Assembly (NCBI RefSeq): GCF_900110075.1
Contig: NZ_FOCJ01000001.1
Span: forward strand, 186,001-250,000
Source of the DNA: Paenibacillus sp. OV219
GTDB lineage: Bacteria; Bacillota; Bacilli; Paenibacillales; Paenibacillaceae
Reading direction: 5' to 3'
Length of the DNA: 64,000 nt
Below are positions 39,002 through 64,000 of this stretch, piece after piece. How positions within the stretch are numbered: position 1 is the first letter of the stretch; every line of letters begins with the position of its first letter. The notes beneath the pieces are model-generated. The model was given only the letters and a program-made list of their open reading frames with translations, ran no database searches and was not told the origin of the DNA. The translations under genes and the position numbers were made by a program.

Positions 39002-39077
39002 TCCATAATATGGCATGAATTTATGCCAAGAGTAAGATCATGGAGCACGTGCATACTTCAAAGAGGAGGAATCACTA

Positions 39078-40037: not shown

Positions 40038-40055
40038 GGAAAGGAGCGACTTTAC

Positions 40056-40994: not shown

Positions 40995-41047
40995 CGCCTT
41001 GACTCATCTAAAGTTAATAGATATTCATTCAGGGGAGGATTTTATTT

Positions 41048-42973: not shown

Positions 42974-42998
42974 TACGGATCGAAGTTTCGGCAGGATG

Positions 42999-43026
42999 CA
43001 GGCTCTAGCCTTTCGGTTAGAGCCTG
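42999..43026 (+). other. Intercistronic stem-loop after the binding-protein gene
   Basis: A perfect 9-bp stem CAGGCTCTA / TAGAGCCTG, extended inward by weaker pairs, without a T-run. More likely an mRNA 3' stabiliser than a terminator. Confidence 0.6.
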
Positions 43027-43068
43027 TCTGTCAAATGAGCTGGGGATATAATGGGGAGGATGTTTGAG

Positions 43069-44136: not shown

Positions 44137-44154
44137 GAGATGGGTATGACCTTG

Positions 44155-44179
44155 AACCGGCCCTGTGGGCCGGTTTTTT
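44155..44179 (+). terminator. Intrinsic terminator or attenuator
   Basis: Perfect 8-bp stem AACCGGCC / GGCCGGTT, loop CTGTG, then a T-run. The next start codon lies only 20 nt later, so some read-through is likely. Confidence 0.82.
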
Positions 44180-44198
44180 ATATGAGGGAGGCGGCGAA

Positions 44199-46086: not shown

Positions 46087-46098
46087 TGAAACGTTTCT
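46087..46098. promoter_or_regulatory. LacI-type operator 1 of lacI-2
   Basis: TGAAACGTTTCT is identical to operator 1 of lacI-1 (37846-37857). Confidence 0.6.
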
Positions 46099-46132
46099 AC
46101 TAACAAGTTGCGACAATGCTAGAATAGCTTAT

Positions 46133-46157
46133 AATTCTGACCGAAATTATCAGAATT
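46133..46157. promoter_or_regulatory. Inverted repeat between the lacI-2 operators
   Basis: AATTCTGA and TCAGAATT form perfect 8-bp arms around 9 nt. This could be an operator for another regulator or a transcript hairpin. Confidence 0.35.
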
Positions 46158-46214: not shown

Positions 46215-46226
46215 TGAAACGTTTCA
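46215..46226. promoter_or_regulatory. LacI-type operator 2 of lacI-2
   Basis: TGAAACGTTTCA, a perfect 12-bp palindrome 28 nt before the start codon, matches operator 3 of lacI-1. Confidence 0.65.
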
Positions 46227-46254: not shown

Positions 46255-47253
46255 ATGGCTGCTACGATAAAAGATGTTGCTAAACTCGCCGGTGTTGCCG
46301 TATCGACTGTCTCATATGCGATGAATAACTCGCCGAAGATCAGCGAGGAGACGCGGCGCAAAGTGTTTCTGGCAGCGAAGGAATTGAACTTCAGGCCAAG
46401 CGGTGCCGCCCGCAATTTGAAGAAAAGGAAGACGCAAACGATCGGATTGTTCCTGTACGATCTCGGCGGACCATTTTATAGTCAAGTAATCGAAGGTGTG
46501 CAAGAGGTCGTTGCCTCGCACGGATTCAACCTAGTTGTATGCAGTACATATGGCGGAGAGAGCAGCTCCGCGCACCGATTTATGGTGGAGCAGTTCGTGG
46601 ATGGAGCAATCATCATGGGCTCATCGATTAGCGACAGCTTAATTCTCCAGGTTGCATCGGAGTCATTCCCGATTGTTGTGTTGGACAGGGAGCTGAAAGG
46701 CGAGTATGTACACAACGTACTCATTACGTATGAGCAGGGCGCCTATGACGCTGTCTCCCATCTTATAAAGCTAGGCCGGCGCAATATCGAGTTTCTGAGC
46801 GGTCCACTCACTTCTTTCGACAATTCGCTTCGATATAACGGCTATAAGAGAGCGCTTGAAGAGTATGGCTTGCCCGTTCCGAAGAAGATTAGCATGTTCG
46901 GTCGATGCCTCGAAGTCGGCGGCTATCAAGCGGCGAAAGTGATGCTTGCTGGCAGTCAACTGCCTGATGCGATTTTCTCGGCGAATGATGAGATGGCGAT
47001 CGGTTCGATTCGCGCGATGTCCGAGATTGGCGTTCGGGTACCGGATGACATTGCAGTCGTCGGCTTCGACAACATTAACATCGGGCCTTACGTCAACCCG
47101 CCTCTCACCACAATTGGACACTCGAAATACGAAGTCGGCGCTATCGCAACGCAATTAATGTTCAGCGCACAGCGCGAAGGAAACTCGATTCTGCTGCCAA
47201 CGCAGCTTATCGTCCGCGACTCTTGCGGGTATAAAGAAAGCCTTAACGGTTAA
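46255..47253 (+). CDS. LacI-family regulator (lacI-2)
   Basis: A 332-residue paralogue of lacI-1 (about 70% identical by eye) with an almost identical DNA-binding region (ATIKDVAKLAGVAVSTVSYAMNNSPKISEETR). Two GAAACGTTTC sites precede it. It lies 158 nt before the first gene of the large glycan-uptake block and is its likely regulator. Effector-domain differences would allow a different inducer while DNA targets stay shared. A short AACGGTT-type repeat follows the stop. Confidence 0.93.
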   Translation: MAATIKDVAKLAGVAVSTVSYAMNNSPKISEETRRKVFLAAKELNFRPSGAARNLKKRKTQTIGLFLYDLGGPFYSQVIEGVQEVVASHGFNLVVCSTYGGESSSAHRFMVEQFVDGAIIMGSSISDSLILQVASESFPIVVLDRELKGEYVHNVLITYEQGAYDAVSHLIKLGRRNIEFLSGPLTSFDNSLRYNGYKRALEEYGLPVPKKISMFGRCLEVGGYQAAKVMLAGSQLPDAIFSANDEMAIGSIRAMSEIGVRVPDDIAVVGFDNINIGPYVNPPLTTIGHSKYEVGAIATQLMFSAQREGNSILLPTQLIVRDSCGYKESLNG

Positions 47254-47411: not shown

Positions 47412-48860
47412 ATGAAAAAGTCACTTTTAATGGTTTTGGCTTTATCGTTTACACTCGCGGGTTGCGGTGGTGGCAACTCGAATTCAAACACAACAAACTC
47501 AAATAATGCAGCAACAAATTCAACAACTAATAATGCAAATGCAAGCACGAACACGAGCACAGATACAACTGCGAACGCAACGAATACAACAGACGATGCT
47601 GCGGCGAATGAGCCTGCCGCAACGGATGAAGTGGTGACAATCAAGTACGCGACATGGGGCGATAAAACAGATACCGGGGCTGAGATGAAGCGGATTAAAG
47701 CGTTCGAAGCGACTCACCCGAATATTAAAGTTGAAATTGATAAATCGATGGACTGGCCTTGGGATGAGAAGCTGGCGGCTGCGGCGGCTGCGGACAAGCT
47801 TCCTGACGTAACCTGGCTGTTCAACGTACCGCTTGCAGTAGGCAGCGGCTGGCTTGAAGATTTGACCCCTTACCTTGCACAAGATCCTGATTTTAGCCCG
47901 GATAAGATCTACGGCAGTCTGGCAAAAACAGGCGAATATAACGGCAAACAATTTGCCCTGCCTCACGGTCTCTACTCATGGGCGATCTACATCAACAAAG
48001 ATTTGCTAGCAAAAGCGAATATCCCAGAGCCACAAGCTAACTGGACATTGTCCGATCTGGAAGACATTTCGAAGAAGCTGACGAATTACAATGAGCACCA
48101 ATTCGGCATCGACGGCGCTGCGGGCATGGGCGATGTATTGATCCCGAACTACAACTCAGCGCTCGGTGCATCGACATGGGATGGCACACAGTATAACTAC
48201 ACGGACCCGGCTTGGGCGGAAGCGACTAACTGGGCGAACAACTTTGGCTACAAAGACAAATCTTCGCTGCAGAGCTACAAGAAAGAAGAAAGAGACAAGT
48301 GGTACGGCAAAGACATCAGCGGCTTTAACATCGGTAAAGTCGGCATGGTGTTCGACGCAACGTGGAGCCTGACTTGGTATAAGCAGAACCTGAAATTCAA
48401 CTGGGATATCCTTCCTGTACCGGGCGTGAATGGTCAAAAAGCCGGCCTTGTTACGGATTATGCTGGTGTTACGAAGAGCTCGAAGCATAAGAAGGAAGCA
48501 GTTGAGTTCCTGAAGTGGATGACTTACTCCAAAGACGGCTGGCTCGCTCGTATCAAAGACGAAACACCGCTTGCGACAATGCCGCTTGTTAACGATCCAG
48601 ACGTATGGAACGCTTGGCTCAACCAAGATTTCGTAACGCCTGGTATCAAAGAGATCGTAAAGGCAATCCCAACTGGCGTACTTGAAACATTCAAGTATCA
48701 ACCGGGCTTTGCAGACTTCACATCGAAAGTAAAAGACAAGTACAACGAGAAGTTCCAGAAGGGCGAAGCAAGACCAGAAGACGTTGCTGCCGAGCTCCAA
48801 GAGAAATCGATGGAGTACTACAACAACGCAATGAAAAAGATCGATGAGGCTACAAAATAA
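47412..48860 (+). CDS. ABC transporter sugar-binding lipoprotein (family 1)
   Basis: A 482-residue solute-binding lipoprotein with lipobox L15-A16-G17-C18, then a linker of about 55 residues made almost only of Asn, Thr, Ser, Ala and Asp, and a family-1 binding domain (VTIKYATWGDKTDTGAEMKRIKAFEATHPNIKVEID). ATG 47412 has GGGGGAG upstream. It is the first gene of the two-importer block. A 17-bp perfect stem-loop separates it from the next gene, which suggests a separately stabilised, abundant transcript. Confidence 0.92.
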   Translation: MKKSLLMVLALSFTLAGCGGGNSNSNTTNSNNAATNSTTNNANASTNTSTDTTANATNTTDDAAANEPAATDEVVTIKYATWGDKTDTGAEMKRIKAFEATHPNIKVEIDKSMDWPWDEKLAAAAAADKLPDVTWLFNVPLAVGSGWLEDLTPYLAQDPDFSPDKIYGSLAKTGEYNGKQFALPHGLYSWAIYINKDLLAKANIPEPQANWTLSDLEDISKKLTNYNEHQFGIDGAAGMGDVLIPNYNSALGASTWDGTQYNYTDPAWAEATNWANNFGYKDKSSLQSYKKEERDKWYGKDISGFNIGKVGMVFDATWSLTWYKQNLKFNWDILPVPGVNGQKAGLVTDYAGVTKSSKHKKEAVEFLKWMTYSKDGWLARIKDETPLATMPLVNDPDVWNAWLNQDFVTPGIKEIVKAIPTGVLETFKYQPGFADFTSKVKDKYNEKFQKGEARPEDVAAELQEKSMEYYNNAMKKIDEATK

Positions 48861-48871
48861 AGAACGTAATC

Positions 48872-48909
48872 ACAATTTTTCCTCCTCTGTGAAGAGGAGG
48901 AAAAATTGT
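48872..48909 (+). other. Very stable intercistronic stem-loop
   Basis: A perfect 17-bp stem (left arm 48872-48888, right arm 48893-48909) with loop GTGA. No T-run follows, so it probably protects the upstream lipoprotein mRNA. The downstream start codon lies 17 nt after it. Confidence 0.7.
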
Positions 48910-48926
48910 TCTACTGGGGTGAAATC

Positions 48927-51900
48927 ATGAAATTCAAACCATTGTTAGCCATAGTGACGCTTCTCTCTCTGTTGATAGCAGCCGTAACGCCAGTATCACT
49001 GGAGGGTCGTTCGGTTACAGCAGCTGCCGAGGGAACAGCGCCTGATAACAAGAAGAACGATAATGACGACGTGCTCGGCAACTTGTTCGGAGATGGCGGT
49101 GACAAGAGCGGCAATATATCGTCAGGTGGAGACACAGAGACAGATGCCGCTAATGCTAATGCTGACGACGAGGAAGAAGATACTCCGGTTAAGAAAGTAA
49201 CGGAAGATTCTTACCGGGATGTCTTGAAAGGTTGGAATGACAAAGGGATCAAGGACGCACAGTCCGGCGATATCGTCATTCACCCGAACCAATTCACCGC
49301 AGTAGGCGGCAAAGCGATTCTGGGTTCGGATTCGAAAGGATATGACGAGCCTGTATTTGAATGGAACGATGACGTGCAAGCCATTGAGCTGAACGTCAAC
49401 GTAGCTCAGGACGCTTTGTATCAAATCAAGTTCGATTATTATTCGACGTCGGATAAGATCATTTCGATCGAGCGCGCAATAGAAGTGAACGGGATTTATC
49501 CTTTTTTTGAAGCTAGACGCTTCGTACTCTCAAAACTATGGGCTGACGAGAATGCTCAGTTTGATCAAGATGGGCTAGGCAATGATTTGCCTGCAAGCCA
49601 GAAGCAGATCAGACAGTGGCAGACGGCCCCGATTACGGACGCAAGTTATTTTAATGCGGAACCGCTGCGGTTTCATCTAAAGCAAGGAATGAACACAATT
49701 AAGTTTAATAATCTGCGGGAAGCTGCCCTTATCGGCCGCATCGTTATCGCAGCGCCTGAAGTATTGCCGAAGTATGAGCAGTACAAGCAGGAGCACAACT
49801 TGCCGAAGGTGGGCAAGTCGCTGATTACGGTGGAAGCCGAGCATCCGCAAACGAAGTCTCAGCCATCTATTCGCTCTATTGCTAGCGGCGATGCGACGGT
49901 AGTGCCTCATCGGAACGGGAAAGTAACGCTCAATACGCTCGGCGGCGAAACAATTGCAACGAGCGGAAACCCGGATGAGAATGAGCAAGCATGGCAAGTG
50001 GGTGGTCAACGCGCGACGTGGAAAGTGAAAGTCGATAAAGCAGGCTCCTACCAATTGGCATTTAAGTATTTGCAAACAGGAAAGACGAGCATGCCTGTTT
50101 ATCGGTCTTTGATGATAGATGGTCAAGTGCCATTCAAGGAAGTGAATGAATACGCGTTCCCGTACACGGAAGACTGGAGCAACGAGGTGATGTCGGACAA
50201 ATCCGGCAAGCCGTACCAGTTCGAGCTTACGGAGGGCGAGCATGAAATCTCACTCACAGCCGATGCTGCACCTTATGGACCAGTTGTCGAAGAGATTCGC
50301 AAGGTGATGTGGGACATCAATACGCTCGCGCTGGAGATCAAGATGGCGACGGGCAACACGATGGACACGAACCGCGACTGGGATATTACGAAGCAAATGC
50401 CAGATCTTGCGACAAATTTGCAAGGCTTCGCGGCTACGCTGCGCAAGCAGTATGACGCGCTCAAGGTGCTAGCTGGCGGGAACCCGGACCAAGCGAGCAA
50501 TTTGCTCGTTGCAGCGGAGACACTAGATCGGCTCGCAGCTAGTCCGGATAAGATTCCATACCAATTTAACCGGCTATCGGAAGGCTCCGGCTCTGTTCTG
50601 CAGACGCTTGGCGTCATTAATACGAAGCTGCCGAATCAGCCGCTTCAGCTGGACCGCTTCTATATTTATGAAGACAGCAAGCTGCCAAATGAGAAAGTCG
50701 GCTTCTTCAAATCGCTGTGGAACAGCATCGCCGCTTTCTTCAAATCGTTCACAACCGATTATTCGCAAGTGTCGGCTGATGACAAAGGCTCTTTGCAAAT
50801 TTGGGTAAACCGTTCGCGGCAAAATGTAATGCAGATGCAGCAGCTTGTCAACCAGGAATTTACGAAGAAGACGGGCATCAAAGTAACGCTGTCCATTATG
50901 CCGGATGAAGGCAAGCTTGTTCTGGCAAGCGCTGCGGGCAATGCGCCTGATGCTGCGCTTGGCGTCAGCAACTATATCCCGTTCCGTCTAGCGGCACGCG
51001 GAGCGCTGGCGGATATGAACCAATTCCAAGGCTTCGACGAAGTGAAGAAGCGGTTCTCGCAGGGCGCACTCGTGCCAGTGACATTCAACAACAAGCTGTA
51101 TGCTTTGCCGGAAACACAGAGCTTCTGGGTGCTGTTCTACCGCAAAGATATTCTCGATGCGCTGAACATTCCTGTACCCGATACGATGGAAGAGGTCAAG
51201 CAGATATTGCCGGAGCTGCAGCGCTTCGGGATGAACTTCTATCTCCCTCTCTCGCAAACCGGCGGCTTCAAGCCATATAACAACACCGTTCCGTTCATCT
51301 ATCAGACGGGCGGCAAGCTCTACACGGACGATGGCATGCATACGGCAATCGACCAAGACGCAGCGCTTGAGGGCCTGAAGGAAATGACCGACATGTTTAC
51401 GGTCTACAGCGTTCCGCTGCAGGTGCCGAGCTTCTATAACCAATTCCGCGACGGCAGCTTGCCTATCGGTATTGCGGATGCAACGACTTATATCCAATTG
51501 ACCGCCGCTGCGCCGGAAATTGCAGGCTGGTGGAAGATAGCGCCATATCCGGGCGTAAAGGGTAAGGATGGCGTCGTGAACCGGACAGCACCGGGAACAG
51601 GCGCAACCGCAATTATGTTCAACAGCAGCAAGAAGAAGGATAAGACTTGGCAGTTCCTGCAATGGTGGACATCGCAAGAGACGCAGGTGCGCTTCGGCAA
51701 CGATCTTGAAGCCATCTACGGTCCGACTTACAAGTGGAATTCCGCCAATGTCGAGGCGTTCAGCCAACTGTCCTGGCCGAAGGAAGATATTGAAGTCATT
51801 CAAGAGCAATGGAAGTGGCTATATGATATTCCGCGTTACTTCGGCGACTACATGGTCGAGCGGGAGATCAGCGACGCTTGGAACAAAGTCGTCTTCAACG

Positions 51901-52070
51901 GCTTCAATGCAAGGCGGGCCATGGAAGACGCCGTCATTAACGGCAATCGCGAAATTAAGAAGCAGCTGACCGACTTCGGATATTTGAAGAACGGGAAGTT
52001 TGTGAAGCCGCTGCAGGTTCCGATTATGCCGAACATGGAAGAAATGGCCAAAGAAGGTGAGCACAAATGA
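48927..52070 (+). CDS. Giant multidomain extracellular solute-binding protein
   Basis: A 1047-residue exported protein. It has a signal peptide ([19 protein letters not shown], cleavage probably near VTAAAEG) with no lipobox; an acidic low-complexity linker (about 40-95); a first beta-sandwich (about 100-265, [23 protein letters not shown]); a second related one (about 290-450, [23 protein letters not shown]); a helical spacer; and a family-1 binding-protein domain (about 620-1000, [17 protein letters not shown]). Binding proteins are normally 400-550 residues. The sandwiches look like CBM6/35-type modules, so the protein may hold a long glycan while the C-terminal lobe presents its end to the permeases. 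The start at ATG 48927 has GGGGTG upstream. Its stop overlaps the permease ATG. Confidence 0.88.
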
Positions 52071-52972
52071 AACCGGCAACGGTAAAAGCGATCAAAAATG
52101 AGCTAAGCGCCTATGCGTTTATCAGCCCTTTCCTTATTATCTTTACACTGCTTGTCGTCGTGCCGGTCGTATCGGCAATTTACTTGTCCTTTACCGATTT
52201 CAACTCGATTCAGACGCCGAAGTTTATTGGGCTAACCAACTTCGTCAACCTCATCACGCAGGATAACGCGTTTATGATGTACGTGCTCCCGAATACGCTG
52301 AAGTTCGCGCTGCTCGTCGGCCCAGGAGGATACTTGCTATCCTTCTGGCTCGCGTGGCTGCTGGCGCAAATTCCGCGCAAGTCGCGTACTGTAATCGCGC
52401 TGGCGATCTACTCGCCGTCGCTTACGGCGGCAATAGCAATGGCGGTCGTCTGGCTCGTTATTTTCAGCGGTAACGCATCGGGATATTTGAATCATTTTCT
52501 CATGAGCCTTGCAATCATTAATGAGCCGATTCAATGGACGCAATCACCGCATTATCTCATGCCGATCATGGTCATCGTATCGCTCTGGAACAGTATGGGC
52601 GTTGGTTTCCTCGCCATGCTCGCCGGCATTCTGAATATCAACGGCGAGATGTATGAAGCGGGCTACATCGATGGTATTCGCACACGTCTGCAAGAGGTGT
52701 GGTATATCACCATTCCGAGCATGAAGCCGCAGATGCTATTCGGCGCTGTTATGGCCGTTGTCGGCACGTTCCAAGCTGGTGCGATTGGCGTGCAGCTGTC
52801 AGGGGCGAACCCGACACCGCAAAATGCCGGTCAGCTGATGATCAATCACATCGAGGATTACGGCTTCCTGCGTTACGATATGGGATACGCTTCGGCGGTT
52901 TCCGTCGTTCTGCTCATTATTGTTTACGGGTTTTCCAAGCTGTGCTGGCGATTGTTCGGCGAGTCCGACTAA
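52067..52972 (+). CDS. Sugar ABC transporter permease (MalF type), importer 1
   Basis: A 301-residue permease with six helices and the EAA loop [29 protein letters not shown]. Its ATG overlaps the stop of the giant binding protein (ATGA), which supports a direct functional link. The expected Ala/Gly of the EAA motif is present. A shared ATPase must be supplied from elsewhere. Confidence 0.92.
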
Positions 52973-52989
52973 GGCCGGCAGGAGAAACG

Positions 52990-53040
52990 ATGAATTGGGA
53001 GAAGGTGACCTGCACGAATGGCTTCATTTCATGGCAATAA
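52990..53040 (+). CDS. Possible 16-residue leader peptide overlapping the next permease
   Basis: ATG 52990 has a perfectly spaced AGGAG and reads MNWEKVTCTNGFISWQ before TAA at 53038, overlapping the permease start at 53018 in another frame. It may couple translation of the permease, or mark a frame change at the original N-terminus. Low confidence. Confidence 0.3.
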   Translation: MNWEKVTCTNGFISWQ

Positions 53041-53899
53041 AATCAATCCGGAGCGGTTCAGCTTCGGTCAGTGGAAGTTTTTCGCATTCTTAATCTCACT
53101 CTCGGTATTTATGATTTTGCCGATTATATTTATTTTCTCACAGGCGCTCAAGCCGGTGGACGAGCTGTTCTTGTATCCGCCGAAGCTGTTTGTTCATCAC
53201 CCGACATGGGGGAACTTTGCTCAGCTGTTCAGCGTCAGCAACGTGGCGGCTGTGCCGAAGACCAAATATCTGTTCAATAGTATTCTAGTGACGGCTGCGG
53301 TTGTTTTCTTGTCGATTATGCTCTGTTCCATGACGGGCTTTGCACTTTCGAAAAAAGAGTTCAAGCTCAAAAAAGTCGTGTTCGAAGTGAACATTATTGC
53401 GCTCATGTTCGTTCCGGCGGCGGTTACAATTCCGAGGTACTTAATTATTGAAAAGCTCGGGCTGACCGACAACTTTTTCGGGCATATTCTGCCGATGCTA
53501 TCGCTGCCGGTAGGTGTATTCTTGGTCAAGCAGTTCGTCGATCAGATTCCGAATGCGCTTATTGAGGCGGCAAAGCTTGACGGTGCCAACGATTACTACG
53601 TATTCCGCAAGCTTGTCATTCCGATGATTATGCCGGCGCTCGCGACGGTATCTATTCTGGCTTTCCAGCTCGCGTGGAACAACGCGGAAACGTCGACCTT
53701 GTTCATGAGCAAGGAGACGCTGAAGACGTTCGCGTTCTACATGAGTACGTTAACGACGACGACAGCGATGGAGAATAACATCGCCGGTCAAGGGATGGCT
53801 GCGGCTGCGGCACTCCTGATGTTTATACCGAACTTGCTCATCTTCATCTTCATGCAAAGCAAAGTGATGGATACGATGGCGCATTCCGGATTGAAGTGA
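53018..53899 (+). CDS. Sugar ABC transporter permease (MalG type), importer 1
   Basis: A 293-residue permease with six helices and the EAA loop ALIEAAKLDGANDYYVFRKLVIPMIMPA. The ATG at 53018 has AAGGTGA about 10 nt upstream; the frame is closed just before it. It forms a pair with the preceding MalF-type protein. Confidence 0.9.
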   Translation: MASFHGNKINPERFSFGQWKFFAFLISLSVFMILPIIFIFSQALKPVDELFLYPPKLFVHHPTWGNFAQLFSVSNVAAVPKTKYLFNSILVTAAVVFLSIMLCSMTGFALSKKEFKLKKVVFEVNIIALMFVPAAVTIPRYLIIEKLGLTDNFFGHILPMLSLPVGVFLVKQFVDQIPNALIEAAKLDGANDYYVFRKLVIPMIMPALATVSILAFQLAWNNAETSTLFMSKETLKTFAFYMSTLTTTTAMENNIAGQGMAAAAALLMFIPNLLIFIFMQSKVMDTMAHSGLK

Positions 53900-53910
53900 G
53901 GGGGAGAACG

Positions 53911-55971
53911 ATGTTTAGGTTCAAGCGAATCATCATACTTCTCGCCGCGATTGCGCTGCTCCTTAGCTGTTCCACTGCTTATGCGGACGTTCCGTACAAC
54001 ACGTTCACAATTGATGGCGGCAAAGGCATCATGATGCAGAACGCCTACACGCCTGTAGGCGCAATCGATGGGTACAGCATCTTTGGCGAGAATGAAGCGG
54101 CAAGTAAAGGGAAGGTCGAGCTTAGAGATCCACAAGATATTTTTGTGGATAACGAAGACAACGTCTATATCGCGGATACGGGTAATGGACGTATTGTGGA
54201 GCTGGATTCCTGGGGGAATTTCATCCGCATCATCGGCGACGGTCAGTTGAAGCAGCCGAGGGGCGTATTCGTCACCGAAACGCATGACATCTACGTTGCA
54301 GACTACGGCAAGCAAAGCGTTGTTGTCTTCGGTCAAGACGGCAAATTGAAGTCGACGATCGGCAAGCCGAAATCGAAGCTGTACGGCAAGGATACGCCGT
54401 TCAAGCCGCAGAAGGTCATTGTCGATAAACGCGGCAGCATCTACATTATCGGCGAAGGTCTTATTCAAGGTCTTGTCCGGCTCAGTCCGGAAGGCAAGTT
54501 TCTTGGCTACTTCGGCGGTAACCGCGCAGGCTTTAACCTGCTCAAGACACTGCAGCGTATTTTCTATACAAAGCAGCAATTGAGCAAGATGACACGGGAA
54601 ATGCCAATCTCGCCGACGAACATTTCGGTCGACGAAGAAGGACTTATCTATACAAGTACGAGCGGTATTAACGGCGGTGCGATCAAGAAGCTGAACGTAG
54701 CCGGTAAAGACTTGCTTGGCGGAACATGGTCGCTCAAACAGGTATCGGATGTAACTGTCGACCGTATGGGCAATATTTTCGCGGTGGATTCCATGGAAGG
54801 CCTCATTCTCGAGTACAATCGGGACGGCAATCTGATGTTCATCTTCAGCGGCAGCGATACAGGTGAACAGCGGCTTGGTCTGCTGCGTGCGCCGACAGGC
54901 ATCGCGGTCACATCCGATGGAAGGCTGCTTGTACTGAGCGGTGAACGTGGCAACGTGCAAGTGTTTAAACAGACGGCATTCACGGCGCTCGTGCATGAAG
55001 CACTCGGATTGTACCTGGACGGTAAATACGTTCAGAGCCGCGAGCCATGGAATGAAGTGCTGCGGCAGAACAGCTTGTTCTCGCTCGCGCATACCGGTAT
55101 TGGCCTCGCTTATTTCAAGGAAGGCAATTACAAGGATGCGTTCGCTGAATTCCAGTTCTCCAAGAACAAAGCGGAATATTCCAATGCGTATTGGGAGCTT
55201 CGTCGCATCTGGATTATGGATCATGCGGTCGATGTCGCGTTAGCCTTTGCGGGCGCTATCGTGCTGTACGCAGCAGTGAGGTTCTCGTATCGCCGATTCA
55301 GCTTCGGAGCACCGGTTGTTAAAGGCTGGACAGCGGTGAAGGAGCAGGGCTTTGTCGCTCAGTTGCTTCATCCGTTCCGTATGCTGCGGCATCCGATTGA
55401 TGGTTATTACGAGCTGGAGCATAACGGCAAAGCTTCGATCGCATCTGCTACCGTATTGCTGGTCCTCATGTTCGTCGTGAGAATGATCGGGCTATACACG
55501 ACAAATTTCCTGTTCGCAACGATGGAACCGCTGCAGATCAATTTCGTCACAGAACTGCTGAAGCTGACGCTTCCACTGTTCGCATGGGTCATCTCCAACT
55601 ACCTCGTCAGCGTCATCAATGACGGCGAAGGTAGCTTTAAGAACATTTATAAAGGCACGGTTTACGCTCTGTCCCCTTATATCATCTTTGCCATTCCGCT
55701 GGCGATTCTGTCTCGTGGGCTTACGTTAATGGAAGGCGTTATTTATAACTACTCGTATGATTTCGTCATTGTGTGGAGCGCGCTGCTCATCTTCATTATG
55801 GTGAAAGAGATTCACGGCTACGAAATTAAAGAAACAGTCCGGAACATCGTTCTCACACTGATCGGAATGCTCATTATGGCGTTCGTTGCGTTCATTCTGT
55901 TCGGCTTGTCGAACCAGGTATGGGAATTTGTTTACTCGTTATTCCAAGAGGTGAATTTGCGTGTCCACTAA
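53911..55971 (+). CDS. Exported NHL-repeat / TPR / YIP1-type membrane protein
   Basis: A 686-residue protein with an N-terminal signal (IIILLAAIALLLSCSTAYAD) that could be cut by signal peptidase I after AYA or lipidated at the Cys of LLSC. Residues about 55-360 carry NHL-type beta-propeller repeats (DPQDIFVDNEDNVYIADTGNGRIVELDSWGNFIRIIG; LRAPTGIAVTSDGRLLVLSGERGNVQVF). Residues about 365-430 look like TPR helices (EALGLYLDGKYVQSREPWNEVL, FKEGNYKDAFAEFQFSKNK). The C-terminal 240 residues are polytopic and resemble a YIP1 domain. The propeller would face outward, tethered by the membrane part. ATG 53911 follows GAGGGGGAG. It lies between two permease pairs, so a scaffold role in glycan import is inferred. 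Confidence 0.85.
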   Translation: MFRFKRIIILLAAIALLLSCSTAYADVPYNTFTIDGGKGIMMQNAYTPVGAIDGYSIFGENEAASKGKVELRDPQDIFVDNEDNVYIADTGNGRIVELDSWGNFIRIIGDGQLKQPRGVFVTETHDIYVADYGKQSVVVFGQDGKLKSTIGKPKSKLYGKDTPFKPQKVIVDKRGSIYIIGEGLIQGLVRLSPEGKFLGYFGGNRAGFNLLKTLQRIFYTKQQLSKMTREMPISPTNISVDEEGLIYTSTSGINGGAIKKLNVAGKDLLGGTWSLKQVSDVTVDRMGNIFAVDSMEGLILEYNRDGNLMFIFSGSDTGEQRLGLLRAPTGIAVTSDGRLLVLSGERGNVQVFKQTAFTALVHEALGLYLDGKYVQSREPWNEVLRQNSLFSLAHTGIGLAYFKEGNYKDAFAEFQFSKNKAEYSNAYWELRRIWIMDHAVDVALAFAGAIVLYAAVRFSYRRFSFGAPVVKGWTAVKEQGFVAQLLHPFRMLRHPIDGYYELEHNGKASIASATVLLVLMFVVRMIGLYTTNFLFATMEPLQINFVTELLKLTLPLFAWVISNYLVSVINDGEGSFKNIYKGTVYALSPYIIFAIPLAILSRGLTLMEGVIYNYSYDFVIVWSALLIFIMVKEIHGYEIKETVRNIVLTLIGMLIMAFVAFILFGLSNQVWEFVYSLFQEVNLRVH

Positions 55972-58270
55972 CAAGAAACGTATTGTATGGGTCGCAGCTA
56001 GTGCAATGGCGGCGTTCGGGTTATATCAATTCGCGTACGGAGCGACAGTTGAGCCGCAGGCCACTCTTGGTCAGAGCAAAATCGTTCTCAATAAGAAGGA
56101 AGGCGCATTCCCGTATCGTTCCAACAATTATACGATGCCGGAGCTGGCGGCAGGCGCGATTGCGAGCCGCACGATCCCGGCGGAATATAAGAAGATTGGC
56201 GAGTCGAATGGGCTGGAGCTCTACATGGCTAGCAAGTCGCTTGCGATTATGGTGAAGAACAAAGCAACCGGTTATGTCTGGTCATCTATGCCAGGTGATG
56301 CTGATTTGGCGAATGCGGATCTGAATGACGAGTGGCAAACGGCGATTAAGTCGCCGCTGCTTCTCGAGTATTATACGGCGGATGAAATGCTGAGCAACGG
56401 CAGCTACCTGTCGCTTGGCGGCAAAGTAGACAAAGTCGAGCCGATCGAGCAAGGGATGCGCGTCAACATTACACTCGCAGCCATTAAAGCGGGCTTGTCG
56501 CTTGAGGTGAAACTTGACGGCGACTCGCTCACCATCAAGATTCCGCAGAGTTCGATGTGGGAGAAAGGTGCGGAGAAGCTGGCTTCCATCCAGCCGTATC
56601 CGTTCATCGGCGCTGTGCACAAAGCGGACATCCCAGGCTACATCTTCATTCCGGACCGGAGCGGAGCGCTTATCCGCTTCTCCAAAGCGCATATCCAGTT
56701 TGACGATCCTTATGTAGGGAAGATTTATGGCACGGACTATTCCTCCGATAGCATGGATTCGGCAACTGGTCGATCATCGGTTCCCGTGTTTGGCGTCGTG
56801 CATGGCACGAAGCAGAACGGCGTGCTCGGTATCGTGGAGGACGGCCGATATAATGCGAAGATCGTCGCTTACCCAAGCGGTTTAAGCACGGATTTCTATT
56901 GGGTGTCGCCGAAATTCGAGATTCGCTACGGCTATTTCCAGCCGACGAGCAAATCCATGGGCGGCTACAACACCTTCCAGAAGGATCCGCTTAAGACAGA
57001 CCGTCAAGTTCGCTACGAGTTCCTCGGCGGCGAAGATGCGGATTATATCGGAATGGCGAAGACCTATCGCAGCTATCTGCAGAACAAAGGCGAGCTGACG
57101 AAGGAGAAGAAAGAGAAGAGCAACGCGGACATTCCTCTGCAGCTCCGTCTGCTCGGTGGGGAGACGGAAGCGAGTACGTTCGGCGCACAAGTTGTTCCGA
57201 TGACGACGTTCGCGCAGTCGAAAACAATTGTCGATCGGCTGGTGAAGGACGGTATCACGAACATGAAGACCGTTCTGGACGGCTGGAATAAAGGCGGCTG
57301 GAATGGCAAGCGGCCGGCAGAATTCCCGGTAGAGTCGAAGCTTGGCGGCGCTTCGGGACTGAAAGAGTTCCAGAAGTATTTGGCTAGCAAAAACATTCCA
57401 CTCTATCTGACTAACAATTACTCCATTGCGTTCGAGAATTCGGACCTGCTTAATTTGCGCTCCGATGCGGTGCGTGCGCTAAACAACGAAATTAACGAGT
57501 TTCCATACTTCGGCTGGGGCTCGGACAGCTTCTTCGATGACATCATGGCGAGGAACATTAGCCCTGGCAAAGCGCTGAAGCTGGCAAAGGACGATACGGA
57601 GTCGATGAGGAAACTCGGTGTAGATGGGTTGGCACTTGACTGGACGGGTACCGTGCTTAACTCGGATTACAACAAGAAACATCCTTTTACTCGTGAACAG
57701 TCGGCGAATACTTATCGGGAGCTTGCGGGGAACTTCAAGAAAAGCGTGAAAGAACTAGCCATGTATCAAGCGAACGATTACATGTGGAAGTATGCGGACA
57801 CCATGTTCGGTGTAGATAACGGTTCTTCGCAGTTCATGTATGAGACCGATACGGTTCCTTTCATACAGACTGTAATGCACGGGTATATCGATTATTTCGC
57901 TAACCCATCCAACTCATCTTCCAGCCCGCGCGAGGATACGCTGCGCATGATCGACTACGGGCAATATCCGTCGTATCTGCTCACGTACGAGCCGTATTGG
58001 AAGCTAAGAGATACACCTTCCATAGACTTGCTCACGACGCAATATACGGATCTTGAACAGCCGCTGACTGAAATGTACAAAGCGATGAACCAAGCGCTGC
58101 GGCAAGTACAGGATGCGACGATTGAAGCGCGCGAAGTTCCGGATTACGGTATCTCGGCGGTTAAATATTCGAACGGCGTGAAGATCGTTGTGAACTACAC
58201 ATCAAATGATTACAGCTTGGGCGGAGTCAACGTCAAGGCGAAGAGCTTCGTCATCATCGGAGGTGAGTAA
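55961..58270 (+). CDS. DUF5696 protein, glycoside-hydrolase-like, exported
   Basis: A 769-residue protein with an N-terminal signal or anchor (VWVAASAMAAFGLYQFAYGATVEP). The middle part is beta-rich; the C-terminal 400 residues look like a glycosidase TIM barrel plus a small beta domain: MKTVLDGWNKGGWNGKRP, GWGSDSFFDDI, DGLALDWTGTVLNSDYNKKHPFTRE and VKYSNGVKIVVNYTSNDYSLGG. I recall this layout from DUF5696 proteins of Paenibacillus; enzyme activity is unproven. Asp residues in DGW and ALDWTG are candidate catalytic acids. It starts at GTG 55961, overlapping the previous gene by 11 nt, and is followed at once by the second permease pair. Confidence 0.82.
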   Translation: MSTNKKRIVWVAASAMAAFGLYQFAYGATVEPQATLGQSKIVLNKKEGAFPYRSNNYTMPELAAGAIASRTIPAEYKKIGESNGLELYMASKSLAIMVKNKATGYVWSSMPGDADLANADLNDEWQTAIKSPLLLEYYTADEMLSNGSYLSLGGKVDKVEPIEQGMRVNITLAAIKAGLSLEVKLDGDSLTIKIPQSSMWEKGAEKLASIQPYPFIGAVHKADIPGYIFIPDRSGALIRFSKAHIQFDDPYVGKIYGTDYSSDSMDSATGRSSVPVFGVVHGTKQNGVLGIVEDGRYNAKIVAYPSGLSTDFYWVSPKFEIRYGYFQPTSKSMGGYNTFQKDPLKTDRQVRYEFLGGEDADYIGMAKTYRSYLQNKGELTKEKKEKSNADIPLQLRLLGGETEASTFGAQVVPMTTFAQSKTIVDRLVKDGITNMKTVLDGWNKGGWNGKRPAEFPVESKLGGASGLKEFQKYLASKNIPLYLTNNYSIAFENSDLLNLRSDAVRALNNEINEFPYFGWGSDSFFDDIMARNISPGKALKLAKDDTESMRKLGVDGLALDWTGTVLNSDYNKKHPFTREQSANTYRELAGNFKKSVKELAMYQANDYMWKYADTMFGVDNGSSQFMYETDTVPFIQTVMHGYIDYFANPSNSSSSPREDTLRMIDYGQYPSYLLTYEPYWKLRDTPSIDLLTTQYTDLEQPLTEMYKAMNQALRQVQDATIEAREVPDYGISAVKYSNGVKIVVNYTSNDYSLGGVNVKAKSFVIIGGE

Positions 58271-58271
58271 G

Positions 58272-59153
58272 TTGAAAATGACCAAAAAGATGAGGGAAGC
58301 GCTCACTGGTTACGCGCTGGTGTCGCCTTGGATAATCGGCTTCATCTTATTCATGGCTTATCCGATTTACTACTCGACCTATCTCAGCTTCCATAAGGTT
58401 ACGATTAGTGCGGATGGCATAGTGACGGAGTACATCAAGGGTGACAACTACAAATACGCCTTCTTGTCTGACCCGGAATTTGTCGAGAAGCTGCTGCTCT
58501 TCATTAAGACGGCGGTAGGCATGATTCCGATCATCATCGTCTTCTCGATGCTTGTCGCACTGCTCATTAATCAGCCGATCCGGATGAAGGGCTTGTTCCG
58601 CTCCATCTTCTTCCTTCCGGTCGTCATTACGAGCGGCGAGGTTATTAACGAACTGTTCAGCCAAGGCGCAACTGCGATTCCGCTCGTCGAGAAGTACGGC
58701 ATCATTGAGATTATTAAAGACAATTTGAGCCCGGCGTGGTCGTCACCGATTATTAGCCTGATTCAGCAGCTCATTCTTATTCTGTGGTTCTCCGGGGTGC
58801 AAATTCTGATTTTCCTCGCGGGTCTGCAGAAGGTAAACAAGCAAGTGTACGAGGCGGCATCCATAGACGGTGCTTCGCCGTGGGTCAGCTTCTGGAAAGT
58901 GACGCTGCCGGCGATCAAGCCGTTCATCGCGGTCAACATGATTTATACGACGGTGGATCTGTTCACGAACTCGTTCAGCGATGTCATTACGATGATTAAG
59001 GACAACATGTTCAATCTGACAACAGGCTTCGGTTATGCAACAGCGCTCGCTTGGATTTACTTCGGCGTCATCTTCGTTTTCCTGCTGCTTATCTTGCTGT
59101 TGTTCCGTAACAACGACGACGTCAATGTGAGACCGAGAAGGAGGAGGGCGTAA
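58272..59153 (+). CDS. Sugar ABC transporter permease (MalF type), importer 2
   Basis: A 293-residue permease with the EAA loop QVYEAASIDGASPWVSFWKVTLPAIKP. TTG 58272 has GGAGGTGAG 8 nt upstream, so it is preferred over ATG 58278 two codons later (14 nt). Its start lies one base after the stop of the DUF5696 gene. It is more similar in layout to lactose/raffinose-type MalF proteins than to the LplB branch. Confidence 0.9.
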   Translation: MKMTKKMREALTGYALVSPWIIGFILFMAYPIYYSTYLSFHKVTISADGIVTEYIKGDNYKYAFLSDPEFVEKLLLFIKTAVGMIPIIIVFSMLVALLINQPIRMKGLFRSIFFLPVVITSGEVINELFSQGATAIPLVEKYGIIEIIKDNLSPAWSSPIISLIQQLILILWFSGVQILIFLAGLQKVNKQVYEAASIDGASPWVSFWKVTLPAIKPFIAVNMIYTTVDLFTNSFSDVITMIKDNMFNLTTGFGYATALAWIYFGVIFVFLLLILLLFRNNDDVNVRPRRRRA

Positions 59154-60148
59154 TGGAACCTACCGCTAAACTGAGCAAGGTGAAGTTTCAGCAGGCAAAG
59201 CTGCAGAAGGCGATGCTGTTTGCCATCTATAATCGCATCAAGCGGATTGCCTTCGGCAGACAGGGAAATGACGGACTCGTATTCAAGCTTTTCGTATACG
59301 CGCTGCTCATCAGTGTCGGATTCGTCTACTTGTATCCGATTCTCTATCTCGTATCCCAGAGCTTCAAGAGCTTGAATGATTTGCTCGACCCGACAGTACT
59401 CTGGATACCGCAGAAGCTGTACTTCGAGAACTTCGTCCAAGCATGGCATGTATTGAACTATATGGATACGTTCTGGAATTCAGTGTTGAACTCCGTCGTG
59501 CCGGCAATCGGACAGACAGTTTCTTGTGCGGTTGTCGGGTATGGACTGGCGAAGTTCCGCTTCCCGGGCAAGTCGATCATATTCGGACTGATGATGATTT
59601 CGTTCATCGTGCCGTCGCAAGTTGTTATGATCCCGCTCTATCTGATGTTCAACGATTACCATATGCTCGGCTCGCCGCTGCCTTTTATCATTCCGACGAT
59701 CTTCGGCCAGGGCATCAAAGGAGTACTGTTCATCCTCATCTACATGCAGTTCTTCCGGACGATTCCGACATCGCTGGAGGAAGCGGCGCAGATGGATGGC
59801 GCGGGCTTTATCCGTACCTTCTTCACAGTCATTCTGCCGATCTCGACGCCGGCGATCGTCGTCGTTATGCTCTTCTCGACAGTATGGCACTGGAATGAGA
59901 CGTACTTGACTTCCCTGTACTTGGGAGACAGCATGACGACTCTTCCGCTGATGCTCAAAACATTCAACGATTCGTTCTCGAAGCTGTATGGCGGAGGAGC
60001 GGCGGTTGGCGGCAAGCATCAGAACATTAACGAGTCGATACGCATGGCAGGTACTCTCCTTATCGTGCTGCCGTTATTAGTCCTCTACCTATTCGCTCAG
60101 AAGCGATTCGTTGAGGTCGTGGACAAGACCGGAATTACTGGGGAGTAA
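59153..60148 (+). CDS. Sugar ABC transporter permease (MalG type), importer 2
   Basis: A 331-residue permease with six helices and the EAA loop SLEEAAQMDGAGFIRTFFTVILPISTPA. It has a longer N-terminal cytoplasmic part (about 45 residues, Lys/Gln-rich) than the importer 1 MalG. The ATG overlaps the stop of its partner (TAATG). A periplasmic-side insert (NDSFSKLYGGGAAVGGKHQNINESIRMAG) lies before the last helix. Confidence 0.92.
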   Translation: MEPTAKLSKVKFQQAKLQKAMLFAIYNRIKRIAFGRQGNDGLVFKLFVYALLISVGFVYLYPILYLVSQSFKSLNDLLDPTVLWIPQKLYFENFVQAWHVLNYMDTFWNSVLNSVVPAIGQTVSCAVVGYGLAKFRFPGKSIIFGLMMISFIVPSQVVMIPLYLMFNDYHMLGSPLPFIIPTIFGQGIKGVLFILIYMQFFRTIPTSLEEAAQMDGAGFIRTFFTVILPISTPAIVVVMLFSTVWHWNETYLTSLYLGDSMTTLPLMLKTFNDSFSKLYGGGAAVGGKHQNINESIRMAGTLLIVLPLLVLYLFAQKRFVEVVDKTGITGE

Positions 60149-61543: not shown

Positions 61544-61567
61544 AACGATAATCAGGAGGCTATGTAC

Positions 61568-62344
61568 ATGAAATATTCCATTCCATCTTATTCGTTTCAC
61601 GGTTTGCACAGCGAAGGCAAGATCGATCTCTTTGGCTATTTCGAAACGGTCAAGTATCGATATCATCTGGATTCAGCAGATATTTGGAACATGATGTTTA
61701 AGAGCTTTGACGATGATTACTTACGCAAACTTCGGGAAGCGCTGGATGAAAGGGAAATGTACGTTGCCAACCTGTGCGTGGATGCTGCAGAAGTGTGGGA
61801 TGTAGACCCGGAGAAGCGCGAGCAGTTCTACCGGAACGGGCTGGACAACCTGCGTGCAGCAGCCATCTTAGGTGCACAGACTGTTCGTATAGATATGGGC
61901 GGCCGCACGCTGGACATGTCGGAGGAGCAGTTCGAGTACACGGTGAATCGTTACAAGGAATATTGCGCTTTTGCTGAGGAGCATGGATTCATGGTTGGAC
62001 CGGAGAATCACTGGGGCACTTCGCGCGACCCGGAGAATATTCGCAAGCTGGTAGAAGCGGTCGATCATCCGAACTTCGGCATTCTGCTCCACTTCGAGAA
62101 CTGGGATTCGGAGAAGGAGAACGGCGACCGTCTCTGTGCGAAATACGCATTCCATACGCATCTGGCGGCATGGGTTATTCCGAATTGCGATGAGAAGCTT
62201 GCGCTTCTGGAGGAAGTCGGCTACAAAGGCCATCTTGGCATTGAACATCACTCGTCGAAGAACGAATATTCGCAAGTGGCATGGCAGTATGCGACTGCGC
62301 GCAACACCTATAATCTGATGCAAGCCAAAAAGTTAGGGGTGTAA
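61568..62344 (+). CDS. Sugar phosphate isomerase/epimerase-like TIM-barrel protein
   Basis: A 258-residue protein of the xylose-isomerase-like superfamily. Metal-site candidates are the Glu in VGPENHWG, the His in LLHFENWD, the His in YAFHTHLAAW and the Glu in GIEHHSS. ATG 61568 has AGGAGG 8 nt upstream; an ATG at 61562 is too close to it. It is followed after 6 nt by a Gfo/Idh/MocA dehydrogenase, the usual partner for keto-sugar chemistry. Confidence 0.88.
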   Translation: MKYSIPSYSFHGLHSEGKIDLFGYFETVKYRYHLDSADIWNMMFKSFDDDYLRKLREALDEREMYVANLCVDAAEVWDVDPEKREQFYRNGLDNLRAAAILGAQTVRIDMGGRTLDMSEEQFEYTVNRYKEYCAFAEEHGFMVGPENHWGTSRDPENIRKLVEAVDHPNFGILLHFENWDSEKENGDRLCAKYAFHTHLAAWVIPNCDEKLALLEEVGYKGHLGIEHHSSKNEYSQVAWQYATARNTYNLMQAKKLGV

Positions 62345-63559: not shown

Positions 63560-64000
63560 ATGATTGAAATTCGAGATAAGCAAATCATGATTGACGGGAA
63601 GGCTACGCTCATTATGTGCGGCGAGGTTCATTATTACCGGCTGCAGCAGAGCGAGTGGCAGGATCGCATTGATAAGCTGAAGGATGCTGGCTGCAATGCG
63701 GTTGCTTCCTATGTGCCGTGGCTCTGTCATGAGCCCTTGGAAGGGCAGTTCGATCTGGATGGACATTCGCGGCCGGAGCTTGATCTTGGCGGATTTATTG
63801 ATCTATGCCGCGATAACGGACTGTATTTCTTTGTCCGCCCAGGCCCATTCATTATGGCGGAGATGAAGAACGAGGGTATCCCGTTCTGGGTATACGAGAA
63901 GCATCCGGAAGTGATTCCGTATGGCTGGGATGGAGCGGCGGCAACGACGCGCACGCTCGATTATTTGGCGCCGGGCTTCTTAGCGGCCACGCGCGATTGG
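63560..64000 (+). CDS. Beta-galactosidase-like protein, GH35 (3' end missing)
   Basis: The first 147 codons of a gene cut by the right edge. IDGKATLIMCGEVHYYRLQQSEWQDRIDKLKDAGCNAVASYVPW is the typical GH35 start, and FVRPGPFIMAEMKNEGIPFWV contains the region of the catalytic acid/base in this family. There is no signal peptide. ATG 63560 has AGGAG 10 nt upstream. It would trim beta-galactosyl or similar end units from an imported oligosaccharide. Confidence 0.85.
   Translation, partial: MIEIRDKQIMIDGKATLIMCGEVHYYRLQQSEWQDRIDKLKDAGCNAVASYVPWLCHEPLEGQFDLDGHSRPELDLGGFIDLCRDNGLYFFVRPGPFIMAEMKNEGIPFWVYEKHPEVIPYGWDGAAATTRTLDYLAPGFLAATRDW

Follow-up and report, generated by a model that had tools for sequence, protein, structure and literature searches.

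A conserved seven-part gene cassette with two permease pairs, an NHL-Yip1 protein and DUF5696 as a candidate glycan-uptake machine

Introduction

Does a row of eight genes that holds two solute-binding proteins and two permease pairs encode a single uptake machine, or several systems under one promoter? The row in question lies in a 64,000-nucleotide stretch of Paenibacillus sp. OV219 (NCBI RefSeq assembly GCF_900110075.1, contig NZ_FOCJ01000001.1), hereafter the window; positions are those of the window, and every feature described lies on its plus strand. Gram-positive CUT1 (MalFGK2-type) ABC importers share an MsmX/MalK ATPase, and in Gram-positive polysaccharide utilisation loci (PULs), as in the SusCD PULs of Gram-negative bacteria, genes for surface binding, transport and degradation are clustered. 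To our knowledge, no role has been assigned to date to the two-channel layout, the NHL-YIP1 protein, DUF5696 or the N-terminal half of the larger binding protein. No description of the cassette and no mention of DUF5696 turned up in the open-access literature, and neither YIP1 nor NHL occurs in the main text of PMC12838199 (Anaerocellum bescii transporter) or PMC4765114 (Paenibacillus JDR-2).

Results

Open reading frames and Pfam matches agree with the eight-gene row that a sequence-only reading had drawn at 47412-60148. The row opens with a family-1 solute-binding lipoprotein, SBP1 (47412..48860, in a frame that starts at 47391), and SBP2, a 1047-residue binding protein (48927..52070), and continues with the CUT1-type permeases A1 (52067..52972) and A2 (53018..53899). 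A protein composed of an NHL propeller, a TPR-like region, a transmembrane segment and a Yip1 membrane domain follows (53911..55971; the frame runs from 53896, and the ATG at 53911 is the likely start), then DUF5696, a GH129/DagB-related and extracytoplasmic protein (55961..58270; Pfam E 1.6e-183), and the CUT1-type permeases B1 (58272..59153, likely starting at TTG 58272 or ATG 58278) and B2 (59153..60148). The genes had been described as mostly joined by stop/start overlaps, which is roughly right: three of the seven junctions overlap or touch (SBP2/permease A1, NHL/DUF5696 and permease B1/B2), and of the other four, two span at most 12 bases, provided that the likely starts are correct, and two are gaps of 45-66 bases. 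The catabolic genes reported downstream are likewise present, namely the catabolic companion of this copy, a GH144-like enzyme (PF10091; 60314..61543) in which no signal peptide is evident, an AP_endonuc_2 or xylose-isomerase-like TIM barrel (61562..62344), a Gfo/Idh/MocA oxidoreductase (62351..63481; GFO_IDH_MocA) and the 5' part of a GH35 gene (63560..64000), which the end of the window cuts.

Upstream lies a LacI-family regulator (46255..47253; PF00356, E 1.1e-18), itself preceded by two operator-like palindromes of LacI type, one perfect (TGAAACGTTTCA, 46215..46226) and one with a single mismatch to it (46087..46098). Between the two sites sits a sigma-70-like promoter (46108..46135, 10/12), a consensus match only, and such sites are no commoner in the region than in shuffles (20 versus 18.6). 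As regards the co-regulation of transport and degradation genes by one glycan that marks a Gram-positive PUL, what the window shows is co-directional genes and LacI-type sites. No Rfam family matched between 44000 and 64000 at gathering thresholds.

All four permeases match BPD_transp_1, and the glycine of the EAA loop (the coupling loop) is kept in 121 of 121 copies of each of the four classes in the cassettes described below. A stricter EAA motif is present in 120 copies of A1, 102 of A2, 54 of B1 and 111 of B2; B1 has the loosest loop, with the motif Asp in 77 of 121. No MalK/MsmX-type ATPase was found among the operon proteins scanned with Pfam, and the genome of the window has 2 ATPases with OB_MalK for at least 150 matches to BPD_transp_1. 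Of the 121 cassettes, 26 adjoin an ATPase, which in one case was confirmed as MalK type; this count comes from sequence motifs and can miss genes past the fetched stretch, which often held less than 2 kb of upstream sequence. These figures fit the earlier proposal of a shared ATPase.

Whether the genes belong together was addressed by comparing their order across genomes. SBP2, permease A1, permease A2, NHL-YIP1, DUF5696, permease B1 and permease B2 occur in one order in all 121 loci, of which 117 lie in 21 genomes of the genus (all full-length DUF5696 genes of the 22 genomes examined) and 4 in other genera. The 117 were picked by DUF5696 and the 4 by NHL-YIP1 similarity, with core genes chained when less than 500 bases apart, so that the comparison asks whether a full-length DUF5696 implies the cassette and not whether every NHL protein does; weak NHL matches also occur without a cassette, as in genome G004 (E 8e-5). 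That every locus shares one arrangement of the core is more than chance. Frames are split or additional in two loci, L142 and L074. Four of the cassettes are in the window's own genome, a single genome carries up to 19, and the identical order is found in records of P. cellulosilyticus and Butyrivibrio fibrisolvens. Each of the 22 genus genomes has as many copies of this YIP1 type as of full-length DUF5696, one of them with none of either.

A phylum survey extends the association. Across 398 genomes, SBP2 and full-length DUF5696 occur together in 37, SBP2 alone in 2 and DUF5696 alone in none, where SBP2 matches were counted if they included the N-terminal half or were cut by a contig end (G391). 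At most three candidates per genome were scored in one search and at most two in the SBP2 search, and both searches were taken to cover the same 398 genomes because their genome handles agree. Six of the 45 genomes with matches at E 1e-60 were left out, as their matches fell wholly or mostly in the common SBP domain (G297, G343, G368, G381, G414 and G444), and G588 and G611, at 26 bits above the DUF5696 cut-off and not full-length, were excluded. In the two SBP2-only genomes (G392 and G441) the match lies close to a contig start, at a distance of roughly 0.7 kb. All 19 short loci that the phylum search yielded have the block YIP1-DUF5696-permease B1-permease B2, and 16 of these loci come from beyond the taxonomic order.

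Beyond the taxonomic order and class, the latter step leading to what we guess are Clostridia, the unit is looser. SBP2 lies downstream in 6 of 47 scored DUF5696 loci and is absent within 8 kb on the same strand in 19 of the 47; NHL-YIP1 is directly upstream of DUF5696 in 18 of those 19, and no close relative of permease A1 was found on the contigs of DUF5696 loci without a nearby SBP2. Genome G351 carries 10 NHL-YIP1 copies and 4 copies of SBP2. In some genomes outside the class, therefore, the unit consists of two modules, SBP2-permease A and NHL-YIP1-DUF5696-permease B, and the first may serve in trans. The earlier claim holds as to composition: a large binding protein, a propeller and a glycosidase-like protein are conserved together with two permease pairs. 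As a single linked system, the unit withstands within the genus (117 of 117) the proposed check of whether relatives carry its parts separately, and the idea is refined outside the class, where the modules can lie apart.

This separability speaks for a rival explanation, namely that two ordinary, independent CUT1 importers under one promoter take up two products of one polymer, with NHL-YIP1 and DUF5696 as separate surface accessories and no joint complex. The coupling glycine in both permease pairs and the presence of SBPs of two kinds would fit such an arrangement, as would the fact that SBP2 tracks permease A more closely than B in within-genome distances (differences of 0.11, 95% 0.05-0.18, and 0.18, 0.09-0.27). 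However, independent importers do not account for NHL-YIP1-DUF5696 always accompanying permease B, in the genus as in the short loci, and would not need an SBP2 that is kept in 37 of 37 genomes with full-length DUF5696, even where it is unlinked. The co-variation of permeases A1 and B1 (0.85) also argues against them, with 0 of 200 label shuffles reaching the observed value in each of nine pairs, although co-variation was compared among cassette genes only and co-inheritance in one operon would by itself give much of it. YIP1 is the weakest core part in this respect (0.56-0.65). Permease B1 tracks A1 more than it tracks B2, a pattern that counts against one machine yet is not expected from two simple, separate importers either. 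On balance we regard independent importers as unlikely.

In the window's propeller protein the NHL region matches at E 4e-17 and the Yip1 domain scores 36.5 bits against a cut-off of 28.6; a separate copy reaches 57.3 bits for Yip1. The claimed TPR part is weak in the window's protein by Pfam (E 0.02), whereas the family profile does match designed TPR chains. A structure model of mean pLDDT 49 is usable for the propeller only (block pLDDT 33-90), and the modelled propeller matches the NHL domains of TRIM proteins and PknD; the Yip1 domain profile matched nothing in the PDB up to E 10. The earlier placement of the propeller outside the cytoplasm is supported. A weak PADLOC match of the protein to PD-T4-6 (E 2e-5, 21.7 bits, 0 stretches) was judged to be chance.

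Since the NHL propeller is the outer domain of the sensor kinase PknD, where it has a sensor role, and some transporter-like proteins act as receptors, one could suppose that a single permease pair transports and that the other forms, with NHL-YIP1 and DUF5696, a sensor or signalling complex for extracellular glycan. The loose EAA loop of permease B1 and the excess of NHL-YIP1 over SBP2 copies in some genomes, G351 among them, are in keeping with this idea. We nevertheless hold it to be quite improbable: the loop glycine is invariant in both permease B subunits, the LacI regulator and operator-like sites at the window's copy make a further sensor superfluous, and neighbouring core genes at most 500 bases apart leave no space within the core for a constant signalling partner.

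DUF5696 is distantly related to the GH129/DagB glycosidases and has conserved acids of its own, with 232, 569 and 665 among the conserved positions. Its profile matches GH129 5wzn (E 7e-15, profile positions 342-547) and DagB 5opq (E 2e-10), and a profile from another sequence set gives E 3e-12 and 7e-11, respectively. The similarity to the GH129 alpha-N-acetylgalactosaminidase NagBb and the GH129-like 3,6-anhydro-D-galactosidase DagB is significant, yet DUF5696 differs from both in its conserved acids, in being secreted or membrane-tethered and in lying inside an importer operon. An N-terminal hydrophobic segment is present in 110 of 121 copies; that of the window's copy falls below threshold. 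At the position aligned with the GH129 active-site residue D322 of 5wzn (Ala in 5wzq), Asp occurs in 4 of 121 copies, and DUF5696 could therefore be non-catalytic; the alignment ends before the equivalent of NagBb D435. We dropped the stronger view that the missing Asp proves a dead enzyme, because DagB is active while conserving only one of the two catalytic residues of NagBb (PMC5698469). An AlphaFold2 model from an alignment of five close relatives (75-90% identical) had a pLDDT of 30.

Both binding proteins contain SBP_bac_1, as do the family-1 solute-binding proteins of CUT1 importers. The nearest solved chain to SBP1 is 22hh (E 6e-36). Of the 121 loci, 21 lack SBP1 in the chain and 2 have one between permease A2 and NHL; any preference of SBP1 for permease B falls short of significance within genomes. 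The SBP2 frame spans 1054 residues, 1047 from the first Met, with SBP_bac_1 at residues 644-927; an N-terminal hydrophobic segment, two beta-rich regions and a helical linker precede this C-terminal domain. One beta-rich region is weakly CBM35-like, below the cut-off, and the domain assignment for the N-terminal half is our own reading.

The neighbouring enzymes suggest that the substrate of the window's copy is probably beta-1,2-gluco-oligosaccharides. The earlier guess at a beta-1,2-glucan gains three pointers, one of them weak: the PF10091 protein has the GH144 fold, an intact homologue of the GH35 enzyme in locus L067 is closest to the beta-1,2-glucosyltransferase IaSGT (7vkw, E 4e-55), and the SBP2 domain of the window is closest to the Listeria protein Lin1841, although that protein is also the top match for the entire SBP2 family profile. 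The same features recall the beta-1,2-glucan clusters of Listeria innocua and of Ignavibacterium, source of IaSGT, although the portion of PMC8861115 consulted makes no mention of NHL-YIP1 or DUF5696. Elsewhere the neighbours vary, and some cassettes adjoin luciferase-like monooxygenases or no sugar enzyme.

At L071, one of the cassettes of the window's genome, the three neighbours scanned include no sugar enzyme, which, together with how unusual YIP1 and propeller proteins are as importer parts, might suggest an export or cell-envelope assembly system. With four BPD_transp_1 permeases accompanied by SBPs, and with glycoside-hydrolase families matched by 11 of the 30 flanking proteins scanned, spread over 9 of 17 loci, we give that explanation almost no credence.

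Discussion

We consider it somewhat more probable than the opposite that the eight genes encode one glycan-uptake machine, that is, a CUT1 ABC importer that has two channels and is joined by a scaffold in the membrane and a processing protein at the surface. In the mechanism that we propose, the lipoprotein SBP1 and SBP2, secreted or membrane-tethered and with carbohydrate-binding-like N-terminal regions, would capture an oligosaccharide; SBP2 would deliver to channel A (permeases A1/A2) and SBP1 perhaps to channel B (permeases B1/B2). A single ATPase of MalK/MsmX type, encoded elsewhere in the window's genome, would power both. The NHL-TPR-Yip1 protein would sit in the membrane with its propeller outward and keep the parts together, and DUF5696 may trim or position the glycan at the channel mouth. 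At the window's copy, imported beta-1,2-gluco-oligosaccharides would pass to the cytoplasmic GH144-like and GH35 enzymes and the oxidoreductases under LacI control, and the machine would serve as a chassis reused for many substrates.

A more specific version of this machine is tentative, and we put less weight on it. Here the NHL-TPR-YIP1 protein would act as the dedicated membrane organiser of a modular import super-complex and bring a surface glycosidase together with two ABC channels, so that capture, cutting and import take place at one site; in some genomes beyond the class, a single unlinked SBP2-permease A module would serve several NHL-YIP1-DUF5696-permease B modules, as a common channel with exchangeable front ends.

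The cassette resembles CUT1 importers in its family-1 SBP, its paired six-TM permeases with EAA loops and the MalK-type ATPase beside some copies, and it differs from them in having two permease pairs per unit, an SBP of 1000 residues with extra N-terminal regions, and a constant NHL-YIP1 and DUF5696. The resemblance to PULs that had been seen in the locus is one of analogy, as binding, transport and degradation genes share a cluster; it does not extend to SusC or SusD, since no match to either family was found by Pfam among the eight proteins. Unlike SusCD PULs, moreover, the cassette reuses a fixed seven-part transport core with various enzymes.

The cassette looks like a widespread uptake machine awaiting characterisation. 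A constant seven-part unit in Bacilli and Clostridia, with up to 19 copies per genome, is likely a major route of glycan uptake in soil and gut bacteria. It suggests what DUF5696, as well as a bacterial Yip1 family, may do, and it can be used as a marker, with substrates predicted from the adjoining enzymes. If the super-complex reading is true, the cassette would be a Gram-positive answer to SusCD.

A single gene order throughout the genus

The cassette at 47412-60148 (forward strand) comprises genes for two solute-binding proteins (SBP1 and SBP2), permeases A1 and A2, an NHL-TPR-YIP1 protein, a DUF5696 protein, and permeases B1 and B2, in that order; a LacI regulator gene lies upstream, and GH144-like, AP_endonuc_2, Gfo/Idh/MocA, and GH35 genes lie downstream. 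Its 6.1-Mb, Paenibacillus-related genome (G000) carries four cassettes of this kind, and the highest count in any one genome was 19. The window's NHL-YIP1 protein is 91% identical to its counterpart in P. taihuensis, the nearest named relative, and 83 to 85% identical to those of P. lignilyticus, P. montanisoli, and strain CF384. Gene-by-gene annotations of the cassette already stand in public records; neither a description of the cassette nor the term DUF5696 was found in searches of an open-access library.

DUF5696 (E 1e-3) was detected in 22/22 genus genomes and at full length in 21 of them, amounting to 117 full-length copies, the window's included (>=495 bits). We fetched ~20 kb around the 116 further DUF5696 genes, together with four loci of other genera picked via the NHL-YIP1 protein, and classed the ORFs of all 121 loci using profiles made from the window's own genes. 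The sequence-only reading had called for a check of gene-order conservation: SBP2-permA1-permA2-NHL-YIP1-DUF5696-permB1-permB2, on a single strand, was the order in 121/121 loci, with SBP1 inserted ahead of NHL in two and split or extra frames in two (L142 and L074). At locus L142 (G008:C2:269300-289042), the frames of permease A1 and of YIP1 are each split, a likely sign of decay or misassembly. SBP1 preceded the core in 76 loci, followed it in 22, lay within it in 2, and was absent from the chain of neighboring genes in 21; NHL and YIP1 were fused in 74 loci and separate genes in 47. The copy number of YIP1 (E 1e-8), scoring two fragments of one broken G008 copy once, equaled that of full-length DUF5696 in 22/22 genomes, with none in genome G004.

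Two proposed modules beyond the genus

DUF5696 occurred in 131/198 genomes of the order (124 above the cut-off) and in 46/398 genomes of the phylum (39 above the cut-off, 37 of these full-length). The cassette is present in both Bacilli and Clostridia, since the identical order recurs in the record NZ_CP054609 of P. cellulosilyticus and in NZ_CP146964 of Butyrivibrio fibrisolvens. Among the 398 phylum genomes, SBP2 (matches including the N-terminal half or cut by a contig end) and full-length DUF5696 occurred together in 37, SBP2 alone in 2, and full-length DUF5696 alone in 0; SBP2 (E 1e-60) was found in 32/32 genomes with full-length DUF5696 outside the order. In 19/19 short loci that the phylum search returned, including 16 from beyond the order, YIP1, DUF5696, permB1, and permB2 were adjacent.

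Of 47 scored loci outside the order, SBP2 lay 4.2 to 6.4 kb upstream of DUF5696 in 22 and 2.0 to 3.8 kb downstream in 6, and 19 had no same-strand SBP2 within 8 kb. NHL-YIP1 was directly upstream of DUF5696 in 18 of these 19, the exception (G370:C81) lying at a contig start. Contig ends do not fully explain the SBP2-less loci, because G351:C7, G452:C7, and G422:C40 have 10 to 49 kb of upstream contig without SBP2. Relatives that match permease A1 closely (E below 1e-110) adjoin SBP2 in genomes outside the order and are absent from the contigs of SBP2-less loci, where a more distant pair is possible. Conversely, SBP2-permA1 stands with no NHL protein detected downstream, although >50 kb of contig extends there, at G422:C45, G452:C3 (84977), and G329:C8; further such cases may represent contig ends. 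The unit therefore reads, by gene arrangement, as a module A (SBP2-permA1-permA2) plus a module B (NHL-YIP1-DUF5696-permB1-permB2). The proposal that all eight genes form one glycan-import system holds insofar as the dependence between modules is unbroken, and is limited by their separation in some loci outside the order. Some genomes have more NHL-YIP1 than SBP2 copies (G351, 10 versus 4), and one module A could possibly serve several B modules in trans.

Co-variation of the cassette proteins

We compared protein distances among cassette pairs of the same genome (457 pairs), which lessens the effect of the species tree. Correlations were positive between all parts (permA1-permA2, 0.91; permA1-permB1, 0.85; SBP2 domain-permA1, 0.85; NHL-permB1, 0.77; SBP2 domain-permB1, 0.75; DUF5696-permA1, 0.74; permB1-permB2, 0.74), weaker for YIP1 against other core parts (0.56 to 0.65) and, over 273 pairs, 0.63 for SBP1-permB1 and 0.56 for SBP1-permA1; 0/200 within-genome label shuffles reached the observed correlation in each of nine pairs tested. 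Because all genes compared belong to the cassette, this co-variation is evidence of joint inheritance rather than of contact. SBP2 tracks permease A over B (bootstrap 95% intervals, 0.05 to 0.18 and 0.09 to 0.27). For a preference of SBP1 for permease B, the within-genome interval spans zero; when all pairs are taken together, the preference is clear with permB2 alone. PermB1 tracks permA1 more closely than permB2, which argues against a strict A/B split.

Channels, DUF5696, and the propeller protein

Both the channels and the binding proteins are of importer type. The EAA-loop glycine is kept in 121/121 sequences of each of the four permease classes, which makes coupling to an ATPase plausible for both pairs; the fuller EAA motif is present in 120/121 (A1), 102/121 (A2), 54/121 (B1, the loosest), and 111/121 (B2). 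An ATPase common to several importers would fit genome G000, because it has 2 OB_MalK ATPases versus at least 150 BPD_transp_1 matches. An ABC ATPase motif lies just beside the cassette in 26/121 loci, a count that ATPases outside the fetched stretch could escape; by SBP1 position, these are 18/22 downstream, 8/21 absent, 0/76 upstream, and 0/2 inside. One such ATPase examined has OB_MalK and TOBE_2 domains, and UgpC is annotated beside the P. cellulosilyticus cassette.

A DUF5696 profile of 54 proteins matches GH129 NagBb (5wzn, E 7e-15) and DagB (5opq, E 2e-10), as does a second set of 33 proteins (3e-12 and 7e-11). D232 is kept in 117/121, W442 in 121/121, and R578 in 119/121; position 569 is D in 112/121 and E in 6/121, and position 665 is E in 111/121 and D in 10/121, the window's copy among the latter. 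The site aligned with 5wzn D322, a residue among those altered in 5wzq, is Asp in just 4/121, and DagB is active though sharing only D435 with NagBb (PMC5698469). Given that rarity and that activity, DUF5696 may either catalyse through another residue set or purely bind; our judgement leans moderately toward an enzyme.

The modelled NHL propeller has, by our reading, about six four-stranded blades (block pLDDT 33 to 90) and is nearest to TRIM NHL domains, with PknD NHL domains also matching; a profile search with the Yip1 part found no solved relative. The hydropathy profile shows a signal-like segment at 12-30, with membrane segments lying at 438 and beyond, and the propeller is thus probably outside the cell. 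L064 retains the Cys found near residue 25 but L065, L067, and L068 lack it, which argues against a lipoprotein. The model of the window's protein (53911-55971) has a helical insertion between blades 3 and 4 (residues ~210-237) that is a candidate for a contact surface; the 22 proteins in alignment A2 all have aligned sequence there.

Regulation and substrates

A promoter-like site is flanked by two operator-like sequences, a perfect TGAAACGTTTCA at 46215 and, at 46087, a copy with one mismatch; three more TGAAACGTTTCA-like sites (37722-37977) precede a second LacI gene (38009) whose product is 70% identical to the first (5 sites in the window versus 0.21 expected). This second LacI-controlled transporter operon (37722-45161) encodes the LacI, a permease pair, Gfo/Idh/MocA, a 2-hydroxyacid dehydrogenase, and a 641-residue lipoprotein-like protein with no Pfam match; it may be co-regulated with the cassette.

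The GH144-like enzyme P0011 has a GH144 fold (5gzh, E 1e-47), with 8xul and others scoring higher. The nearest solved chain to the window's SBP2 is Lin1841, although this is also the top match for the whole SBP2 family; we take Lin1841 to be the L. innocua protein that binds beta-1,2-gluco-oligosaccharides. In relative L067, the intact GH35 comes nearest to IaSGT (E 3.6e-55), a beta-1,2-glucosyltransferase (PMC8861115). The passages of that paper on a Sop-binding protein from L. innocua do not use the name Lin1841. These three likenesses agree as putative pointers to a beta-1,2-gluco-oligosaccharide substrate for the window's copy.

Elsewhere the neighbors differ. Among 30 flanking proteins from 17 hand-picked loci, 11 (9/17 loci) match glycoside hydrolase families: GH5 (L069), GH2 and two GH123 (L070), GH85 (L117), GLAA-B barrels of GH110 type (L118), GH114 (L144), GHL10 (L141), GH18 (L073), GH35 (L186), and GH29 (L119). 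Other flanking genes include DUF5060, CBM9, DUF5722 plus GDSL lipase, luciferase-like monooxygenase, regulators, and household genes. At L161 (413-5623), a 1736-residue protein fusing DUF5722 and GDSL lipase domains immediately follows the cassette; at L071 (G000:C34:329988-349751), a complete cassette is followed by nucleotidyltransferase-like and UvrA-like genes, not sugar enzymes. Luciferase-like (LLM) flavin monooxygenases follow the cassettes at L106 (12882-16967; one by Pfam) and L210 (20204-29427; four by annotation), and, together with the extra solute-binding proteins alongside, suggest an unusual substrate there, perhaps non-glycan or modified. We read the cassette, from its varied neighbors, as a putative chassis used for many substrates.
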